Source: Lutjanus erythropterus (lineage: Eukaryota; Chordata; Actinopteri; Lutjaniformes; Lutjanidae). Taken from it: 64,000 nucleotides of DNA. The translations under genes were made by a program, and so were the position numbers. Numbering within the stretch: the first letter of the stretch is position 1; each line of letters begins with the position of its first letter. The notes below the pieces were generated by a model. That model was given only the letters and a program-made list of their open reading frames with translations. It was not told the origin of the DNA and did no database searches. The stretch lies in the NCBI GenBank assembly GCA_020091685.1, contig CM034594.1:179981-243980 (forward strand), given 5' to 3'. Shown in pieces: positions 14,264 to 47,600 of the stretch.

Positions 14264-14302
14264 CACTGTAAACCCTAATAAGTTCACAGAACTCAAAAAT
14301 TA
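14264..14302 (+). repeat. Left terminal inverted repeat of the CACTA-type element
   Basis: It begins CACTGTAAACCCTAATAAGT and pairs imperfectly with the right terminus at 23690-23728. It is preceded by TA. Confidence 0.75.
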
Positions 14303-14453
14303 TTTTGTAACAGATTACACAAAAATATTTTAGTGATGTTTTTAAATGTTTTAAGTTTACATAAAATAAAAATTACATTTGCAGTTGCCTTAAATTATCT
14401 CAATGTTATCTTATAAATATTGATATTCCACAACCTATAATTAGAGAGTAATT

Positions 14454-14562
14454 CACTCAAATTTTTTAATACTTTTCAACTCATACAATGTGGGAAATAG
14501 ACTCAAAATTTTCAATATTCTTCAACTCATAATCTGGGGGAAATGCACTCAAAATTCATTCT
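14454..14562 (+). repeat. 46-bp subterminal tandem repeats, left end of the transposon
   Basis: Units begin at 14454, 14500 and 14546, giving a 46-bp period and about 2.3 copies. Each starts with a form of CACTCAAA and contains TTCAACTCATA followed by a GGGAAAT block. AACTCATAA recurs just inside the right terminus. Subterminal repeats in CACTA elements are binding sites for their DNA-binding protein; applying that role here is inference. Confidence 0.7.
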
Positions 14563-14661
14563 AAACTGAAATACTGATGCTGGCCCACTACACAATTATA
14601 ATCAGCTAATAATTTTAGAAAACATGAAGGCAACACCACAGTGACAATTTAACAACTTTTT

Positions 14662-14667
14662 TTTATT
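14662..14667 (-). terminator. Candidate polyadenylation signal for the transposon transcript
   Basis: The minus strand reads AATAAA about 770 bases beyond the stop of the PB1 gene and about 400 bases inside the left terminus. I saw no AATAAA on this strand between the two genes, so this could serve both. It is assigned from sequence alone. Confidence 0.35.
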
Positions 14668-15435
14668 CAACACAATGTGCTTTTTAAAAGGGACGAGTCA
14701 AAAGAGCTCAGTCAAAACAAAGTGCTTGTCATAAATTAAAACAAAAGGAAAAGGAAATGACTCCAGCAAAACAAGATGTGTTTTAAAGTACAGTAAGTGT
14801 TAATAGTTCCATATTCTGATAGTGATCATTGCTACAGACGGTAGATTCAGTATTTTGGGTCTCCATCTCAAATTATTCAGTAAACATTATGATAAAACCT
14901 CACAAAGCATTCAGGATAAAATCAATCCATCCTCAACAGCAATGACAACTATTAGAATGTGGAGCCATTTAACACTGTTTAAAAACATTTTGGCACTTAC
15001 TGTACCTTGAAGGCTGCAACTCACTATTTTATAATAAAACATTCAAATAAAGCACTGGCTTTGGGCCGTACATCAACTGGCAACATCAAGGTAGGCATTA
15101 GACAACAGAACATTAAACATGTATAGTGCATGAATTGAACAGTTATTTTCCACAAGTTATTCAGTGCATAAACTTGGGCTGGGCAATATGTCAACGTTGT
15201 GATATTTATGTATTAACAATCAATGTATTAAATCTGAGGTAGAAGAGGCAAACAGTGCTACATTCAGTATCGTTATTTAGGCTTTGTACTGAGTAGAAAT
15301 TTGAGGTAAAATGGAAACAGTGTCACATCTTAAAACTGAGGTAGAAGAGGAAAATGATTACATTTGTAAAGACGGGAAAAATAAACAAAAGACTTCCTCA
15401 ATACTCAGCTCAACAAACAGCCCATTCTGAGTGAT

Positions 15436-17963
15436 TCACTCACTGAACAAATCATTCTTCAGCGTCAGTAGACGCCCTTTCAGTGGTTTGTTGTCCTCAA
15501 GACACATGACAACTTTTTGGATAAATGTGAATGTAAGCTCGAGATTCTTTGGGTACTGTAGGTCTAGTGCATAGATGTACCCAAAGAGCAGGAGAAATGA
15601 GTCAGCCAGATTTGTGGGACCACTCACAAGTATTTCATCCTCCACGACAATACAGATGCTCTCAGGGCTGAAGAGGGCCGCATCAGTAGTGTCATCCGAG
15701 ACGACTGTCAGGAGAGCCACCGGAGTGTCTGTGAGGTCTGGACCATCTGCTGACTACAAAACACAAATAATACAAGAATGAGTTCAGCCCCTCAAGGATA
15801 CAAATCATGCTAATGATGTCTAGAAGTGACATTACTGTCATTTAGCACTTTGCACTAAGACTGCAACTAAGCTACATGTAAACTATTTTCTTTACATATG
15901 CAATATATTAGTTTCACACCTACCTGTTAACATACTTTTTGTTTAGTGGAATGCTTTATACTTACCTTTTCATTTATATAATTTTTACATTTTGTTACAG
16001 TTTGCAGAATAACAACTCAAGTAAACTTCATAAACAGGTCCTGGTTCTCCTAGAGTTATTTGAGTGATGCCATATGTTTAAGCTGACTGAATAGCTAGGC
16101 AAAGGGATTGATAGTGAGGCCAGTACACTTACATTACAGGTCCTGAAGAACTTGGAGGCATCTTCACGCAGGTACACAGGAAGCGCACGAAGGACAAGGG
16201 CCCGTCTCATATTTACATCACGTTGTTCCTAAATGGACAAAAAAATATCCATTACAGTAATTTTATACTACGGCTTCTTACAGTTGTCTGCAAATAACCT
16301 GTTAATAATCTGTTTCTGAATGATGCAAAGTTAAAAATTCACCTGAAGGTCATAAATCCTCATGAGCTTGCCTAGCTCCTCCGCTATCTTGCCAGTCTTG
16401 GTGGCCTTCTCTCTGAACAAGGTGATGAGTTTAGGTGTGTGTCTATCCAGCTCCTTGTAGAATTGATTGCGCAGGTTAACGTTGTTGATTCGGTGGAACT
16501 CTGCAAACACCTGTATATGGACAGAATTACACAGAAATGTACAAAAATGAATTAGGAACAGAATTGTGAATGTATTTTAATTAGTTTTCAGTTGGCAGGT
16601 AGCAGAACCAAGGGAAATTCTATTAGGGATGGGTCAGAACCAAGGTCAAAATAGAAAGATAATTGTCATTGTCAACAGTCATTTAAATATTGGAAAAAAT
16701 CAAAAGAGACATGTTCAAAGTGGGCATGCTAAAGAGTCATGATGAGTAATTGCTCTCAACAAGGACAGTAAACAGTAAAATAATTTAAATAATCAAACAG
16801 TAAAATAGTTAAGTGAATTATGGACATGTATAGTTCTTTCCCTATCAGTGGTTACACATGTATAAATCAACTGGTGTTATCAACCCAACAGGAAGGTAGG
16901 GGAGAGGAGACTTGTGGAGAAAAGCATGTATATTGATGACTACATGCCATGCCATGCCATCAAAAGAACAGCATCTTGTTTTATTTTTTTTTACCTGTGA
17001 GTCCATAAGTAGGGCTGGCCATCTGTCCACAACATCTCTCACCCGTGGAGCTACAAGAGCTCCAACGATTTCTTGCCGACGAAGGGCATAGGTCGTGTTC
17101 ATGAGCTTGCCTATGACTAATTGGTTTCTCTCAGTCTTTTCAACTTCATGCATGATTTCTTCTCTCATTTCTTCCAGAGTGGCTGGGGTTTGATCCCTCG
17201 GTAGGTTGATGATGTAGTTGACCTCAGCTTTTCGAGCTTTCTTTATGTTTTTATGGGGGTGGTCTTTGTCTGGGTTGTTTCGGCTCCGTCTCCCTGTGTT
17301 GATGGCTACTTCTGCAACCCCAGCTTTGGCCAGAATGTTACGGTAAGATGCAACCTTGTACCCTATGTGACGTTTCCATCCCAACTCCCCGTCTTCACCA
17401 GCCATCATTCTGAGACATGGATGTGCTGTAATTAAAGCTTGAGCAGCCTTTGCCAATTCCTTTTCATGTGGGTATGGTTTAAAACTGTAGATAGTTTCTG
17501 CCATTTTTCTAAGGATTTCACCCTTCTGCGACCTCTTTAACTTCAGCAATTTTCCTGATTGTTCATAAACACGATTTCCTTCTTCTAGTATATGTTCCAT
17601 TTCATAACCAAAACCAGGAACAACAAAGTGATCAGGCCAACTCTTCTGGCGCTGTGATGCAGGAACATGTGGAAGTATGTCTGTGTCAGAAGATGCAGTG
17701 GATGAGGTGTCACCTTCAGGTCTGACGACTCTCAATGTGCCCTTTTCTGGTAACTCTTGGATGTCCACAAGAAGACAAAGATCACCATCAAAGTCCGGAT
17801 CCTCATAATGCAGGCTAAAGTCCCCATCCAGTCTCGGCTTGAACCTGTCTTGCATTATTTCTTTCAGCTCCTCCACTGACTTTGGTCGCTGAAGTAGAGT
17901 AAGTTTCAGGGCGATGTCTCGTGCAACATATACACGCAGCACATGCTTCTGGGCATCAGCCAT
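15436..17963 (-). CDS. PB1-domain protein ('SAMD3-like' fish family), four coding exons, second gene of the transposon
   Basis: The spliced model has coding exons 17963-16995, 16510-16343, 16228-16133 and 15753-15436, all joined in phase 0 at GT/AG borders, giving 516 codons without a stop. The first exon has an acceptor at 17972 and the start MADAQKH sits in a good context (A at -3, G at +4); the in-frame residues upstream are probably intron. Residues about 5-80 look like a PB1 fold, including the acidic YEDPDFDGD stretch typical of its OPCA motif. A Ser/Thr-rich linker, a charged helical middle (about 140-300) and a conserved C-terminal block containing LLFGYIYALDLQYPKNL follow. Fish genomes hold many relatives labelled 'sterile alpha motif domain-containing protein 3-like', but I see no SAM domain here. 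Its position inside the transposon suggests an accessory transposition or regulatory protein; the biochemical role is unknown. Confidence 0.75.
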
Positions 17964-18036
17964 CTTTTGGTTCTTAAAAGACAAAAATATGTTACTTCTC
18001 ATGGAGAGTGAAGGTGACACACACAGCATATACATG

Positions 18037-18149
18037 TCCATAGACCCACTGGTCCACACAAACACTGGGACACCACATGAACAATGGGACGTATGGAGGG
18101 CCAGCTGCTGGAGTGGGGCAGTATATTCATGGACCCACTGGTCCGCACA
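18037..18149. repeat. Pair of 24-bp direct repeats between the two transposon genes
   Basis: 18037-18060 and 18126-18149 match at 21 of 24 positions around the core GACCCACTGGTCC. They occupy the gap between the transposase stop and the PB1 exon. Function is unknown. Confidence 0.55.
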
Positions 18150-18197
18150 GCTCTGAGAGAAAGTTGCAGTCAGCTGTTTACGTGCTTCAACAAATCT

Positions 18198-20870
18198 TCA
18201 GTGTAACAATATGAAACATTTGGGTGTCAAGAGCAATCTTCCATTTATGTTGTAAGCGCAGAGAGGTGTTTTGTCATTTAGCTCTGATGGGGTGTGAACA
18301 GCCAAATTCTTTGGGAAAAGTTCGTAGGATCTCAGGTGTTCAATGTAGTGTGATGTGTGCTCTTGGCAAAGAAAGACAGCCCTACTGTTAACCAGGAGAA
18401 CCTGTTCAATTCTACAGTAATTAGGCAGTCCTCCCTCTTGCCCCACAGACAAAAACATTCCTACATTATAATCAGTTCCATCAATGCAGACTTTTGATGT
18501 GCTGTAAACAACATTGCTTGCTGTTATTTGTTCAATGTATGTCTTGGCAACATTTGGAAGCATTGATACCAGTACAGAGGAGACATTTGATGTCTGCTGG
18601 TGAGGTTTGAAGAATCCTGAGGCACTGAGATGGTATGCTACCATGTATTGATGCTTGTCTGCAAGTGTTTTTAACACATTCTTAAAGTTCTGTGTGTCTT
18701 GTACAACTCTCTTGAAAAAACGGTGTTTACCTTCAAACCTCATTGTCCACAATTGAACAAGGGGCCCAAAACGGCGCACAAGGTCAGGATAATGTTCAAT
18801 GTAGTGATGTTTAGGACGGAGTTTGAAATCTGGAAAGGCTTCTTTCAGCATCTCTCTATGATCCTGTATCTTGGACTGTAAATACTGGATGGACTCCTCT
18901 GTGAATTCTGAGCACAGAGATAACTCTACTACCTCTTTTAAGTCCATTAGCACAGTCCATGCACCATCCTCTTCAGGAACTGCATTCCCAATAATCAAAG
19001 GGAGCAGTCTAAGCAATGTGGCATTTTCATGGCCATTACCACCAATGCTTTTCTTTACAGCGAAGGTCTGTGGTATTTTATGAGGTTTGTCAATCTTGTC
19101 AGTGTGCTGGTATGGAAATGACACAATTCTCTCGTTCAAATCTTCAAGGGTAAAGTATTTGCGACGGATCATCTCTCCGATACACAGGGCAAGCTCTACG
19201 GGTACAATGCCCTCAAAAAGATCATGGAGTACATCAGGTGGAAAGCCAGTGACAGTATGAAAATGCTCTAGATGCTGGCTCAGGACACAATCTGCCTGAA
19301 CACCATTCTGACTCTGACTATCCCCATGCATTACAGCATGCACATCACTGTTATGGCTGTCTTTTGTCCTAAGACTGAACTCGCCACTTGCAACTTCATG
19401 AGTCTGAAGTTTAGCTTGAGTTGCTGTGCAAAATCTGCAAAAATATTCTGCTCTAAAAGACTTTGAAAAGCCTGCCAAATCATGGGCTGCAAGATTGTCA
19501 GACACCACACACATGACTGTTCCCTGAACTACCTTACCAATAGACTCGATGAATACCCCATCTTGTTCAAGGGTATGGAGGTCTCTCAACAAAGGAGCAA
19601 GTGCTTTTTCATAGCCAAATGTCTGTATGTCAGCCACTTTACATAAAGCTGCAAGCTGAATCACATGCAAGGCTGATCGGTATTTACTGGGTAGATCAGC
19701 AAGCATCCAGTATACTGAACAGATTTTGTGTATTTTTCGTGATGTGCCAAGTGGATTGGCTATTTCCAAATCATCAATGTACAAAATGAGTGTTATCTTT
19801 AACTCATCTGAAGACAAGAATGTGTTCTCTTTGAAGTACAAGCCATCTTGGTGGCTTGCATAATGACTGTTTTGTGCCACTTTTGTTTCTTTCATTTTGT
19901 CCAGAATATCTGTGTGATTGAAGATTTTTTGTATCATCTCCAGAATGGGAACATGCACTGCTGCATGTCCGGGCTCTAGCAGATACTGTACAGGCTTTAC
20001 CACAGGGTAATTATTTTCAATGAAGGTTTTCCTTCTCTTGATAGAGGATAACTGCTCCCCCTTAGCTGTGGCACTGACAATAACATTACTGTCCATAACA
20101 GTACTGACAACCTCATTTAGAAGTGTTTCACTGACAGTGATGTCATGACTCTGTAAGACCTCTCTAATGTCATGTTTGAGTATTGGTTGGGACAAGGAAA
20201 ATATCTGAGTCAAATGTTCCACTATTTCCTGAGATGCCATGTCAGATACATGAAGAATAGAGTGCATCTTTAGGAATAATGATGCCAAGTTATGTTTCAA
20301 CTGGGCTCTTAAAATGTCTGTGGCACACTGACTGTTTCCCTCATTGAGATCAAATGTGTCTGCAGACCCTGCACTGTGACATTCAGCAGGTTCCCCAAGA
20401 CTTTCTGCTGCAACTACAACTGGGGCACTATCATTGTCTGCCAATACAACACATTCATCAAAGTCAGAATCACCACCATGTTTTCTACTTTTGTGTGCAT
20501 TAAACGCTGAGTAGCTATTTGTTCTGTAATTACAGTTATTGAATGGGCATGTTACCATCTCATGACTTCGTAAATGACTTCTCAAATGACCAAATAGAAT
20601 TTCCTCAGAAAAGGGCTGCTTGAAGTTACACAAAGTACATGTAAAAAAAACACATGCTCCTTCAGTTGCAGCTACTCTACATGAATCATTGTGAGACCTT
20701 GACAGATGAGCTTTCATTGCTTCGAATGATGGGAAAGTACAAATGCAACTGTCATAGAGACATGGCAGGGGGGACACTCTTGAATATTGGCTATGCAGCA
20801 CAGTATAGTGCCAAAATAATTGTCCCCGAGTATTTGAAGTTGCAGAACACAACTTGCACTTCCACTCCAT
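18198..20870 (-). CDS. C2H2-finger CACTA-like transposase, first gene of the transposon
   Basis: This is one uninterrupted coding exon of 890 codons. An acceptor (TTGCAG) lies at 20886-20887, so the in-frame ATG at 20906 is probably intronic and MEWKCKLC at 20870 is the likely start. Four C2H2-type fingers fill residues about 4-131, then an acidic linker. The central and C-terminal part resembles tnp2-type CACTA transposases: IDDLE near 365, SDNLAAHD near 457, a CxxC pair near 478, PPDVLHDLFEGIVP near 544, and a final KHHYIEHYP plus MRFEGKHRFFK block (687-719). In this family acidic residues in such motifs form the DDE-type catalytic site; which ones do so here is not established. It probably binds and cuts the element's ends in the nucleus. 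The gene lies just upstream of the PB1 gene on the same strand. Confidence 0.75.
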   Translation of the reverse strand: MEWKCKLCSATSNTRGQLFWHYTVLHSQYSRVSPLPCLYDSCICTFPSFEAMKAHLSRSHNDSCRVAATEGACVFFTCTLCNFKQPFSEEILFGHLRSHLRSHEMVTCPFNNCNYRTNSYSAFNAHKSRKHGGDSDFDECVVLADNDSAPVVVAAESLGEPAECHSAGSADTFDLNEGNSQCATDILRAQLKHNLASLFLKMHSILHVSDMASQEIVEHLTQIFSLSQPILKHDIREVLQSHDITVSETLLNEVVSTVMDSNVIVSATAKGEQLSSIKRRKTFIENNYPVVKPVQYLLEPGHAAVHVPILEMIQKIFNHTDILDKMKETKVAQNSHYASHQDGLYFKENTFLSSDELKITLILYIDDLEIANPLGTSRKIHKICSVYWMLADLPSKYRSALHVIQLAALCKVADIQTFGYEKALAPLLRDLHTLEQDGVFIESIGKVVQGTVMCVVSDNLAAHDLAGFSKSFRAEYFCRFCTATQAKLQTHEVASGEFSLRTKDSHNSDVHAVMHGDSQSQNGVQADCVLSQHLEHFHTVTGFPPDVLHDLFEGIVPVELALCIGEMIRRKYFTLEDLNERIVSFPYQHTDKIDKPHKIPQTFAVKKSIGGNGHENATLLRLLPLIIGNAVPEEDGAWTVLMDLKEVVELSLCSEFTEESIQYLQSKIQDHREMLKEAFPDFKLRPKHHYIEHYPDLVRRFGPLVQLWTMRFEGKHRFFKRVVQDTQNFKNVLKTLADKHQYMVAYHLSASGFFKPHQQTSNVSSVLVSMLPNVAKTYIEQITASNVVYSTSKVCIDGTDYNVGMFLSVGQEGGLPNYCRIEQVLLVNSRAVFLCQEHTSHYIEHLRSYELFPKNLAVHTPSELNDKTPLCAYNINGRLLLTPKCFILLH

Positions 20871-21127
20871 TGGACCAACTTCACCCTGCAATTCAAATAT
20901 TTTCAATTAAAGTCTAAACCATTTCAGCCCTGTTTTGCAATTCTGGCTATTCAAAAATTGAATTTGTACAAGTTAAAATATGTTAAAATTTTGAATGAAG
21001 GGGAAAATGATTGTGCCAACCAGTTGACAACACATCAGTAATTTGATTAAGTCTGTTCTTCTGCTGCAAAAAATCTGAACATTGTGAATAATTCAGGGTG
21101 AAAAATTCCACAATTTACATAACTCAC

Positions 21128-21189
21128 CTATTGACACCTGTCTGATGGTGAAACGCTGACTCTCTGTAGCACTCTTTGTAGTCCGATAT
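21128..21189 (-). other. Candidate non-coding 5' exon of the transposon transcript
   Basis: The minus strand shows an acceptor (GTGTACAG) before 21189 and a donor (GTGAGT) after 21128, enclosing 62 bases without an ATG. It lies about 240 bases upstream of the transposase exon acceptor. It is predicted from splice signals only. Confidence 0.4.
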
Positions 21190-21614
21190 CTGTACACAAC
21201 ATGAGCACAAAAATGATTTATTAATGTTCAAAAACATTTCTAAAATAACACATCACATACATTACAATGATAAATACAATAAAACTGTGAATATACAGAC
21301 AAAACAGTTAAATCTATCAAAATATGCATTGTACACTAATTTTAGTAAAAATGAAAATGTAAAAAGATGAGCAAGTTAGTTATTAACAGGCAAAACATCA
21401 AAGTCATGTGCTTATAGATCTGCTATTTCTGTTGTTGATGGTTTTGTTTTTAACACGGTATTAATAAAGGGTTCAAGTGATCAAACATTTTTTTCTGTGG
21501 ACCCCACAGTTGAGATAAAAACATTTAAAGAAACAGTCATTTGCAAAAGAACGACTGTGGAAACACATAAAATAAAACCAAATATTAATAACACTATTTC
21601 ATAATACATCCTAC

Positions 21615-21664
21615 CTGAACCGTTAAAAGGATCTTGAGATGATCTCACAACCACATACTTGAGC
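21615..21664 (-). other. Candidate non-coding 5' exon of the transposon transcript
   Basis: Minus-strand borders are a pyrimidine-rich acceptor (TTTCTTCGTAG) before 21664 and a donor (GTAGGA) after 21615. The 50-base interior includes one ATG-free path into the next exon. It is predicted from splice signals only. Confidence 0.35.
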
Positions 21665-21753
21665 CTACGAAGAAATACAAACGCAGGCCTGGTTAGCATC
21701 ATGATAACACACGCACATTATGCTGTTTAGCATTGTTTGTTTCACGCTAGGAC

Positions 21754-22780
21754 CAGTGGTGGACAGTAACGAAGTACATTTACTTGAGTACTGTACTTAA
21801 GTACATTTTTTGAGGATCTGTACTTTACTTGAGTATTTGTTTTTTTGGAAACTTCTGACTTTCACTCCACTACATTTCAAAGACAAATATTGTACTTTTG
21901 ACTCCACTACATTTCTAGGAAGGTTGTTGTTACTTTTTGACTGAGGACATCGTTGAAGTCAGCCGTTACTGTTTTTTCTTTTCTAAAATGCAGTTGGTCA
22001 CATGTTGTGTTCCTCACAGAAACAAACCAATCACAGTAGCTCCTCTCAAATGGGACTGATGTAAAAGTGGAAATACGTCCAGGCGCACTAACAAGCACAA
22101 GCAAGTTCTCCCTCTTTCATTCAAACAAAAAGCGGTAATGGTGACGGCAGGAGAAAGACTAAATTAAATCTCAAGATGTTATTATAATTATTCATTATTC
22201 CAGGTAGCTTTTAAAGTTGGATTGTTTTTATTGGGGTGAAAAATACAACATAATTCATGTTTATACTGCCTCTGAAGACAGAAAGAAATCTCAGTTATTT
22301 AACAGACTTGGAGAACTTCTTACAGTTAGCTTCAATCTTATGTTATGATGTGATTTTAATACAGTTACATCAGAAAATGACAATAACTGTCCTTTTTGGT
22401 TTTGATTGCATTTCTATGCTGAAGTTTTTATAGGTGTTTCTATAGGCTTTGTGTAGCAGAGTGGTTCTACAAGCAAGTCAGTGCATCATTAGATGGTTTC
22501 AGAGAGTTACAAGCTTCTGTAAATAACTGTTACATCATGAAAACAATACAGCATGTATTGATATTCGAAACTGTACTTTATAATTTGTACTTTTGAATAC
22601 TTAAGTATTTTTAAAAACATGTACTTTTGAATACTTAAGTATTTTAAAACCAAGTACTCTAGTACTTTAACTCAAGTAAAATTTTGACTGAGCAACTTTC
22701 ACTTGTAGTTGAGGAATATTTGACCAGGAGTATCTATACTTTGACTCAAGTACTGGGGTTGAGTACTTTGTCCACCACTG
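21754..22780. mobile_element. hAT-type MITE nested in the CACTA-type element
   Basis: It is 1027 bp with 12-bp inverted ends, CAGTGGTGGACA at the left and TGTCCACCACTG at the right, flanked by a perfect 8-bp duplication GCTAGGAC (21746-21753 and 22781-22788). An 8-bp duplication with CAGTG-like ends is the hAT signature. The interior is AT-rich with TACTT/AAGTA runs typical of a MITE family widespread in fish, and I see no transposase frame in it. It sits between the candidate 5' exons and the CpG-rich promoter side of the host element, so it would fall in a first intron. Confidence 0.9.
22585..22650. repeat. Short tandem duplication inside the hAT-type MITE
   Basis: The phrase GTACTTTTGAATACTTAAGT occurs twice in direct succession, about 37 bases apart. 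It is part of the MITE's right arm. Confidence 0.6.
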
Positions 22781-22876
22781 GCTAGGACACACATACACAC
22801 AACACGTTGGCTATGTTGATTACTCGAGTCGACAACGTAAAATATTGACCATGTAACGCGAACTAAGTATACTCAC

Positions 22877-23000
22877 AGTACGCACGTGGATAACCGGCGC
22901 CCAGCGAAAACAACAACCGGCAGAAACCGGAAGCAGGGATAACGTTATGCTTTCGGACTCCGCCAGAGAGATTTTACTCGTGGATCTAACCGCCGATGTC
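22877..23000 (-). other. Candidate first (5' untranslated) exon
   Basis: A GTGAGT donor follows 22877 on the minus strand. The upstream 120 bases are CpG-rich, have no ATG, and lie just downstream of the ZNF143-like site. The 5' border is a guess. Confidence 0.3.
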
Positions 23001-23012
23001 CCGGGCAAACAT

Positions 23013-23032
23013 GCATTATGGGAAATGTAGTT
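23013..23032 (-). promoter_or_regulatory. ZNF143/Staf-like promoter motif
   Basis: The minus strand reads AACTACATTTCCCATAATGC, close to the vertebrate motif ACTACAATTCCCAGAATGC bound by ZNF143/Staf at housekeeping promoters. It faces the transposon genes. The match is visible; the binding is inferred. Confidence 0.5.
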
Positions 23033-23261
23033 CATCTAGGAAACCCGCCACGTTACCAACCTGCAACGTTACAACCCACGTTACACCGTTGTAAGAAGAA
23101 GTAACGTAAATTTGTCACATTCTACAACTTCTAAAGTTACCATTACTTGGATCTGTAAACTATTTACAACAAATATTCACTATACACATTGTACAAATGC
23201 ATTCCAAATTTAGACTATTTGTCGAAATTCAATTCAAAACAAAACTGTTAACGTTACTTAC

Positions 23262-23422
23262 CAAATCAGGAATGATGATAAGACGGCGCTTAAGAAAACG
23301 AGGGCAAGAAGACTAATGAAAAAAACTGAGGTGGTGGTGGTTTGAAGCGGTGGAATAAAAGTACGCATTGCAAACAAATAAAAAGAAATTAAAATGTGTT
23401 CCACGTCCACAGCGGCTGGCAT
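23262..23422 (-). other. Alternative candidate first exon with a short open frame
   Basis: A strong GTAAGT donor follows 23262. An ATG at 23422 opens a 53-codon frame (MPAAVDVEHIL...) that runs hydrophobic into the donor. It could be a leader exon joined to either transposon gene, or untranslated. No acceptor-phase test is possible without a transcript. Confidence 0.25.
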
Positions 23423-23689
23423 AAACTTCAGATTCGCAACTCCGCATCAAGGCAAATTCAACATGGCTGACTCAGCTTTCCTGAGGGAGAGATAAGACCC
23501 GCCCACCAGAACGTCGTAACGTCGTTAACGTCATGACGCTAATGTATGGTTCCTAAACTTTTTGAGTGTTCCACACAATTTAGCTATAAAATATTGAGCC
23601 CTATTCAATTAAAGTGGAATAAATCTTAATAGAGCTCAACACTTTATAGTTTAGTCAACTTCATAACGACATTTGACTGCCACGACCTT

Positions 23690-23728
23690 ATTAGTTATGA
23701 GTTGGTATAACTGTTTGGGATTACAGTG
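23690..23728 (-). repeat. Right terminal inverted repeat of the CACTA-type element
   Basis: Read on the minus strand it begins CACTGTAATCCCAAACAGTT and continues to an AACTCATAA motif that also occurs in the left subterminal repeats. It is followed by TA on the plus strand. Confidence 0.75.
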
Positions 23729-23794
23729 TACACAGGATTACATAATCCAACATCTTCCTCATAAACAGCAAAATACTGAGTTATGAATAATATG

Positions 23795-47124: not shown

Positions 47125-47600
47125 GCTCGGTCGATTCCTCTATGGTCACTGCTGCAAATAGGTTTACGAGCAAATGTGAAGATAAATCCACTTTTTAATC
47201 CCAAAAGTTTAAATAACAAATGCTGAGCTCTCGTCTGGCCAGTCCAGAGGTCCGTAATTTCTCCACGGTTGCTGCTGCAGAGGGGCTGAGACACAGAAGT
47301 ACAAATAAATCCACTTTTTCATCTCAAAAGTTTAAAAAACAAACACTGAGCTCTCATCTGGCCAGTCCAGGGGTCCACAATTTCTTCATGGTCGCTGCTG
47401 CAGAGGTTGACGAGCGGGAGTAAAAGTAAATTTTTAATCCCAAAAGTTTAAAAAGAAAATGCTGAGCTCTTGTCTGGCCGGTCTGCGGCTCCACGATTTC
47501 TTCATGTGCTGTTGCTGCAGAGGTCTGAGAAGCACAAGTGAAAATAAATCCACTTTTTAATCCCAAAAGTTTGAAACATACACTCTGAGTTCCCCTCCTG
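47125..47600. repeat. Minisatellite of about 120-bp period, about four units
   Basis: Unit starts with GCTGAGCTCT-like sequence are seen at 47220, 47344 and 47460 with a partial unit before and a start-like CACTCTGAG at 47580, so periods are 124, 116 and about 121 bp. Each unit carries a CTGGCC.GTC block, TTTCTTCATGGTCGCTGCTG-like sequence and AATCCCAAAAGTTTAAA. Frames across it are periodic by-products. Confidence 0.8.

Follow-up and report, generated by a model that had tools for sequence, protein, structure and literature searches.

The 64,000-nucleotide window analysed here, a stretch of contig C4 in the Lutjanus erythropterus genome (937.6 Mb in 444 contigs searched), contains at positions 14264-23728 a CACTA-type element with two genes. 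One encodes a transposase, and the other a partner protein with a PB1-like N-terminus. We modeled both genes from sequence only, and list the features of the element here in window coordinates:

14264..23728, genes on the minus strand: complete CACTA-type element of 9,465 bp, delimited by its termini, its TA flanks and an identical copy at C8
14262..14263: left target site duplication, TA
23729..23730: right target site duplication, TA
14264..14279, plus strand: left terminal inverted repeat, CACTGTAAACCCTAAT, matching the right end at 13 of 16 positions
23713..23728, minus strand: terminal inverted repeat of the right end, CACTGTAATCCCAAAC as reverse complement
14264..14563: outermost 300 bp of the left end, tested as its subterminal region, with a repeated ACTCAAAA-type motif
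23429..23728: outermost 300 bp of the right end, tested likewise and counted jointly with the left
18198..20870, minus strand: transposase coding sequence, 890 amino acids in one exon, ATG at 20870 and stop at 18198
16995..17963, minus strand: partner coding exon 1, with kin downstream of the transposase at all ten other fetched loci
16343..16510, minus strand: partner exon 2
16133..16228, minus strand: partner exon 3
15436..15753, minus strand: partner exon 4, with the stop codon
21754..22780: non-autonomous hAT-type insertion of 1,027 bp, with an 8-bp duplication (GCTAGGAC) at 21746-21753 and 22781-22788

The termini of the element read CACTGTAA with TA on either flank, and its two ends (CACTGTAAACCC and CACTGTAATCCC) match at 13 of 16 positions. 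An earlier note on this DNA had given exactly these coordinates, with CACTG termini and TA flanks, and our analysis confirms that observation. We compared the terminal inverted repeats (TIRs) with first-order Markov shuffles of the searched regions (300 per copy), and found that the observed match was reached by 3/300 shuffles for the window element and 0/300 for its C8 copy. The corresponding counts were 0/300 for the copies C2a, C24, and C18, 4/300 for C2c, and 6/300 for C15. Of 13 copies examined, ten had ends that could be placed, with inverted termini of the CAC...GTG type (CACTG or CACTC); the ends of C3a and C282 were looked for and not found, and those of C14 are uncertain. The TIR varies by family (CACTGTAA, CACTGAAAAAA, CACTGCAAAAAA, CACTCAAAAAAA). 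All ten end-mapped copies show a 2-bp target duplication (TA, CA/TG or TT, hence not TA-specific), with boundaries taken from pairwise alignments for the window trio and for the C24/C18 and C8b/C2b pairs, and with the 2-bp match itself a condition of the end search for C2a, C15, C2c, and C8b. The 3-bp duplication typical of plant CACTA elements was found in none of the ten.

The outer 137 bp of the element on the left and the outer 129 bp on the right each have three matches in the genome. A second copy, at C8:11123412-11132876, is identical to the window element over 9,465/9,465 bp, hAT-type insert included, and lies in different flanks with a CA/TG duplication in place of TA. Different flanks and a different 2-bp duplication around an identical copy point to very recent transposition, and for the same reasons we rejected a segmental duplication as its origin. 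An assembly error also seems unlikely, since each copy is bounded by its termini and by a well-formed duplication. Because the hAT-type insert is common to both, at least one jump followed its insertion, recently enough that zero differences have accumulated. The third copy (C4d, at 45.70 Mb on C4) is 4,049 bp long and about 97% identical, and has its own CA duplication. It lacks the sequence corresponding to window positions 16671-21038, and with it the transposase and partner exon 1, and it has the empty site of the hAT-type insert with a single GCTAGGAC. The recent activity proposed in the earlier note is thus supported by the C8 copy. The note's description of the element as intact with two uninterrupted genes holds for the coding regions, both of which are open, and needs qualifying for the element as a whole, since the 1,027-bp insert sits between the right end and the transposase open reading frame (ORF).

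Other families show similar signs. The C24/C18 pair is 99.6% identical and the C8b/C2b pair 99.8%, which suggests recent movement of these families as well. By direct count the C24 and C18 transposases differ at 3 positions in 2,646; we discarded the ratio of amino-acid-changing to silent differences (pN/pS) for this pair as an apparent artefact of a dropped stop codon. We also noted divergent transposase relatives (31-37% identical) with equal or near-equal scores at C7:4420340, C200:10140, and C5:14624365, and at C16:37250832 and C23:28227466. No partner gene was detected beside the relatives at these five loci, which may represent other families that moved recently and whose partner is either unrecognised or absent.

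The transposase carries four C2H2-like Cys/His clusters at its N-terminus (the Pfam profile zf-C2H2 matches below cutoff in 2/6 families). Residues D366/D367, D458, C478-x2-C481, H689-x3-H693, and E713 are invariant in all six aligned families. With the catalytic D and E residues putatively assigned from this pattern, the protein shows a D-D-E arrangement with C(2)C and H(3)H between the second D and the E, as in the CACTA-Mirage-Chapaev (CMC)/RAG1 clade; for the CMC/Transib/RAG1 clade, the signature given in PMC12730594 is the order D-C(2)C-H(3-4)H-E. The spacings are 20 residues from D458 to C478, 208 from C481 to H689, and 20 from H693 to E713, set against 19, 207, and 20 in RAG1 (D708, C727/C730, H937/H942, E962; PMC4914335).

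Profile searches, which bear on the earlier note's proposal that the transposase be compared with CMC profiles, gave sub-threshold matches. Plavaka (PF18759) matched 2/6 members over the C(2)C region (best 1.8e-5), and DUF4218, a plant CACTA domain, matched 1/6 over the H(3)H-E region (0.0014). All of these matches fall under the curated cutoffs, and neither profile is among the Pfam matches of the window transposase. Plavaka has been placed near EnSpm (PMC12730594). Transposase_21 is absent from the Pfam matches of all six members. Searches of solved structures returned zinc-finger proteins for the transposase, and for its core a FokI line without significance (E 0.61). Membership in the CMC type is therefore proposed on motif architecture and sub-threshold profile matches, not on fold. 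Between the window and C282, the transposases differ with pN 0.25 and pS 0.75 and the partner exons 1 with pN 0.33 and pS 0.73. In both genes amino-acid-changing differences stay below saturated silent ones, which indicates constraint. A further transposase relative, 42% identical, lies at C3:6640237-6642798 within a stop-free frame exceeding 7,300 codons, with no partner gene detected in its vicinity.

The partner is encoded by four coding exons, each a multiple of three in length, and comprises 516 amino acids; the exon-1 products of eight copies align end to end. Their N-terminal ~85 residues match the PB1 profile (PF00564) at E 0.1 or better in 6/8 members, with every match under the Pfam cutoff, so that the PB1 protein of the earlier note is retained here as a protein with a PB1-like N-terminus. 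The label "SAMD3-like" is not supported. The partner may resemble vertebrate SAMD3, yet no SAM domain appeared among the Pfam matches of the 516-residue protein, of the exon-1 products of eight copies, of a pair of solitary loci, or of two extended frames, a scan that would miss one lying on an upstream exon that itself escaped detection. PMC10706053 concerns SAMD9L. Searches of solved structures gave no match for the PB1 stretch and two insignificant lines only (E 0.49 and 0.8) for exon 1. Lys/Arg-rich stretches are conserved in the partner. Acceptor-like sites lie shortly before the partner ATG at a score of at least 0.7 in 6/9 families (a home-made score that 11% of random sites reach), and before the transposase ATG in 4/9. 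These sites make it probable that splicing connects the partner mRNA to an exon lying 5' of the transposase ORF. In En/Spm, further tnpA exons follow the tnpD ORF, which is located in the region of intron 1 (PMC2613891, PMC1636069).

The two genes occur together throughout the genome. The transposase query gave at least 56 matches (best 50 of 198 candidates scored), and a second query was scored for its best 51 of 227; the resulting 66 matches (56 plus 10 from the second query) merged into 45 loci. For the partner, a second query was scored for all of its 66 candidates, and 62 exon-1 matches (57 from this query plus 5 from the first) merged into 44 loci. Among the matches listed, 28/45 transposase loci and 28/44 partner exon-1 loci have their counterpart within 10 kb, where chance would give 0.01. 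In all 28 pairs the partner lies downstream on the same strand, and no other arrangement occurs within 10 kb. When all 143 partner matches are used, later exons included, 29/45 transposase loci and 29/62 partner loci are paired, again with none arranged otherwise. The 12 best-scoring transposases (window, C8, and the next ten) all have a partner just downstream; the ten loci fetched after the window and C8 show it on the same strand in every case, and at the eight loci measured it starts ~70-550 bp past the end of the transposase match.

The two proteins have also evolved together. Trees of the transposase and of partner exon 1 from nine families share all six internal splits and the same topology, with support of 0.94-1.00 in the transposase tree, and the two distance matrices are correlated (Mantel r 0.87, p 1e-4 by label permutation). 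Linkage and co-divergence together identify the partner as a long-standing resident gene of the transposon, neither a neighbour nor a recent capture. Standing side by side with the transposase in divergent relatives and having evolved with it, the partner looks like a transposon gene and not an ordinary host gene. Overall, this is a two-gene animal CACTA-type lineage in which the partner has long co-diverged with the transposase. The earlier note's two-gene mobile system is upheld in that the pair travels as one unit inside the termini and stands side by side in many copies of this genome. The pattern it named as contrary, with the genes apart at syntenic positions and without these termini, does not emerge in this genome, given joint movement, pairing in 12/12 of the best-scoring loci, and matching trees.

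We examined the outer ends of six families for subterminal repeats, using four settings per family (two lengths and two word sizes) with uncorrected p values. The window element has an excess of ACTCAAA(A) within the 2 x 300 bp at its ends (p 0.005 for 7-mers, p 0.01 for 8-mers). Settings below 0.05 numbered 4/4 for C24 and C2c, 3/4 for C15, and 2/4 for the window, so that repeats are significant in 4/6 families; the repeats themselves vary between families.

From these data, we consider it likely that the element is a recently mobile DNA transposon of the CACTA/EnSpm (CMC) kind whose two genes move jointly. It is possibly autonomous, and may still be active. Movement would proceed by cut-and-paste: a DDE transposase with N-terminal zinc-finger-like clusters and a RAG1-like zinc-binding insertion would cut at the CACTG ends and join them to the target with a 2-bp stagger. 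The partner would most likely bind the repeated subterminal DNA, oligomerise through its N-terminal PB1 domain, or both. In this way it would pair the ends or relieve repression of the element, the part played by TNPA in maize En/Spm. Both proteins would probably derive from a single transcription unit that begins close to the right end, with the transposase ORF lying within an intron of the partner's transcript. For a partner role in end binding or assembly, we put the chances at about even.

Several observations weigh against parts of this account. The first D-D distance is 91-92 residues, against 108 in RAG1 (PMC4914335); profile searches of solved structures gave neither RAG1 nor any solved transposase; and a single-sequence AlphaFold model of the transposase has a mean predicted local distance difference test (pLDDT) score of 34, with an unusable fold. 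The partner fares similarly: its best PB1 match, that of the window, is sub-threshold (E 9.8e-4; it scores 19.5 bits where the cutoff is 23.6), and the model of its exon 1 has a mean pLDDT of 36 and no usable fold. The window's own partner acceptor scores 0.6. Among the loci listed, 17/45 transposases have no partner exon 1 (16/45 when all exons are used), 11 of these 17 being 25-33% and six 38-61% identical to the window protein, and 16/44 partner exon-1 loci have no transposase (33/62 with all exons). Support in the partner tree drops to 0.31 at one shared split and 0.75-0.78 at two others. The subterminal repeats named in the earlier note, significant over 2 x 300 bp in the window element, lose significance at the outer 2 x 500 bp (p 0.155 for 7-mers, 0.07 for 8-mers), and C2a and C8b reach significance in 0/4 settings. 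Finally, the hAT-type insert may disturb the 5' region of the element.

The partner could instead be a host gene that adjoins the transposase by chance or was captured once. Solitary open copies of the partner do exist, as at C13:1163113-1164294, and the upstream sequence of the two such loci that we fetched showed a broken transposase remnant in one and no transposase in 2.6 kb in the other. The remnant speaks against a host gene, as do the partner's place within the termini and its movement along with them, 28/45 listed transposase loci paired against 0.01 expected, and a partner tree that equals the transposase tree at every internal split. This explanation is already contradicted in this genome, and we regard it as highly improbable. 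A more serious alternative, to which we give somewhat less than even chances, accepts the partner as a transposon gene that does not bind the ends, and that would instead counter silencing, guide target choice or nuclear entry, or regulate expression. PB1 domains are protein-protein interaction modules, the transposase's own zinc-finger-like clusters could bind the ends, and two of six families lack significant subterminal repeats. The conserved Lys/Arg-rich stretches of the partner weigh against this alternative, and so does a gene order that resembles the division between TNPD and TNPA (PMC2613891, PMC1636069).

We also weighed the nature of the element itself. The window copy would be non-autonomous if it were mobilised in trans, the hAT-type insert having broken its promoter or first intron. 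That this 1,027-bp insert separates the right end from the transposase ORF fits such a history, as does C4d, which has ends and a CA duplication without a transposase and may therefore be trans-mobilised, unless its deletion came later. Both coding regions of the window element are open, however, and an identical copy bearing the insert stands at another site; moreover, cross-mobilisation seems unlikely with the nearest other full-length open relative among the matches listed (C282) at 59%. We judge a non-autonomous window copy rather unlikely. Assignment to a different DDE superfamily, either Transib/RAG-like or a new lineage, would account for 2-bp instead of 3-bp duplications, for a zinc-site spacing like that of RAG1, and for the lack of Transposase_21 among the Pfam matches of six members. 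The CAC...GTG ends and the partial Plavaka and DUF4218 matches run counter to it, and an animal CACTA element with 2-bp duplications has been described (SmTRC1, PMC1636069); on balance we find this assignment quite improbable and retain that to CACTA/EnSpm.

Compared with known systems, the element resembles the plant CACTA elements, including maize En/Spm with its TNPA and TNPD, in its CACTR termini, its subterminal repeats, and its combination of a catalytic and a second protein (PMC2613891, PMC1636069). It also has in common with them a large transposase ORF placed 5', within an intron of the gene for the second protein, if the shared transcript proposed here is correct (PMC2613891, PMC1636069). 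It differs in its duplication, 2 bp and not 3 bp, and in the PB1-like N-terminus of its partner, a comparison with TNPA made by description only. Plant TNPA-like proteins have been described as dissimilar even among themselves (PMC2613891). Fungal EnSpm elements also duplicate 3 bp, and the CMC/CMCT clade is defined with target duplications of 2 to 5 bp, a range that includes the 2 bp found here (PMC12730594). The RAG1 and Transib transposases share with this one the DDE residues, an insertion that contains C(2)C and H(3-4)H, and nearly the same spacing between the second D and the E. They differ in having H(4)H where we find H(3)H, in the first D-D distance (108 against 91-92), in a duplication of 5 bp instead of 2 bp, and in showing no detectable similarity when solved structures were searched with profiles. 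Fish CMC-EnSpm families in Repbase/Dfam probably belong to the same broad group as the element. Scans of viral contigs gave no relative.

Among animals, the CACTA (TRC) element SmTRC1 likewise shows 2-bp duplications and encodes another protein besides its transposase (PMC1636069). It carries a Transposase_21 domain, which is not among the matches here. For the second proteins of SmTRC1, its authors reported no kin among other animal elements, and they proposed fast evolution (PMC1636069). The second protein described here, in contrast, is conserved in nine families and has diverged in step with the transposase, so that its role becomes testable. PB1 also occurs in a transposon-derived protein of plants, MUSTANG-B (MUGB; PMC8616336), where, comparing by description, it is one domain of a domesticated transposase-derived protein, and not a separate gene of a mobile element as it is here. 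The titles and opening abstract lines of the literature consulted name no PB1 or SAMD3-like partner for CACTA elements.

The element offers a recent, low-copy candidate for study, and the pairing offers a way to recognise transposon genes possibly hidden among host-gene annotations. More tentatively, with the odds somewhat against it, a whole animal CACTA lineage might run on an obligate RAG1-like DDE transposase and a polymer-forming, end-binding, co-diverged PB1 partner. The vertebrate genes annotated as "SAMD3/SAMD3-like" would then be partner genes or their domesticated descendants.

Two minor observations complete the survey. The solitary partner-family frame at C13:1163017-1164309 is open over 431 codons, contains a short SHDKLL-like internal repeat, and has no transposase match in the 2.6 kb upstream; it is either a deletion derivative or a host-recruited gene. 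Elsewhere in the window, positions 47182-47576 hold a minisatellite with 3.3 copies of a 123-bp unit.

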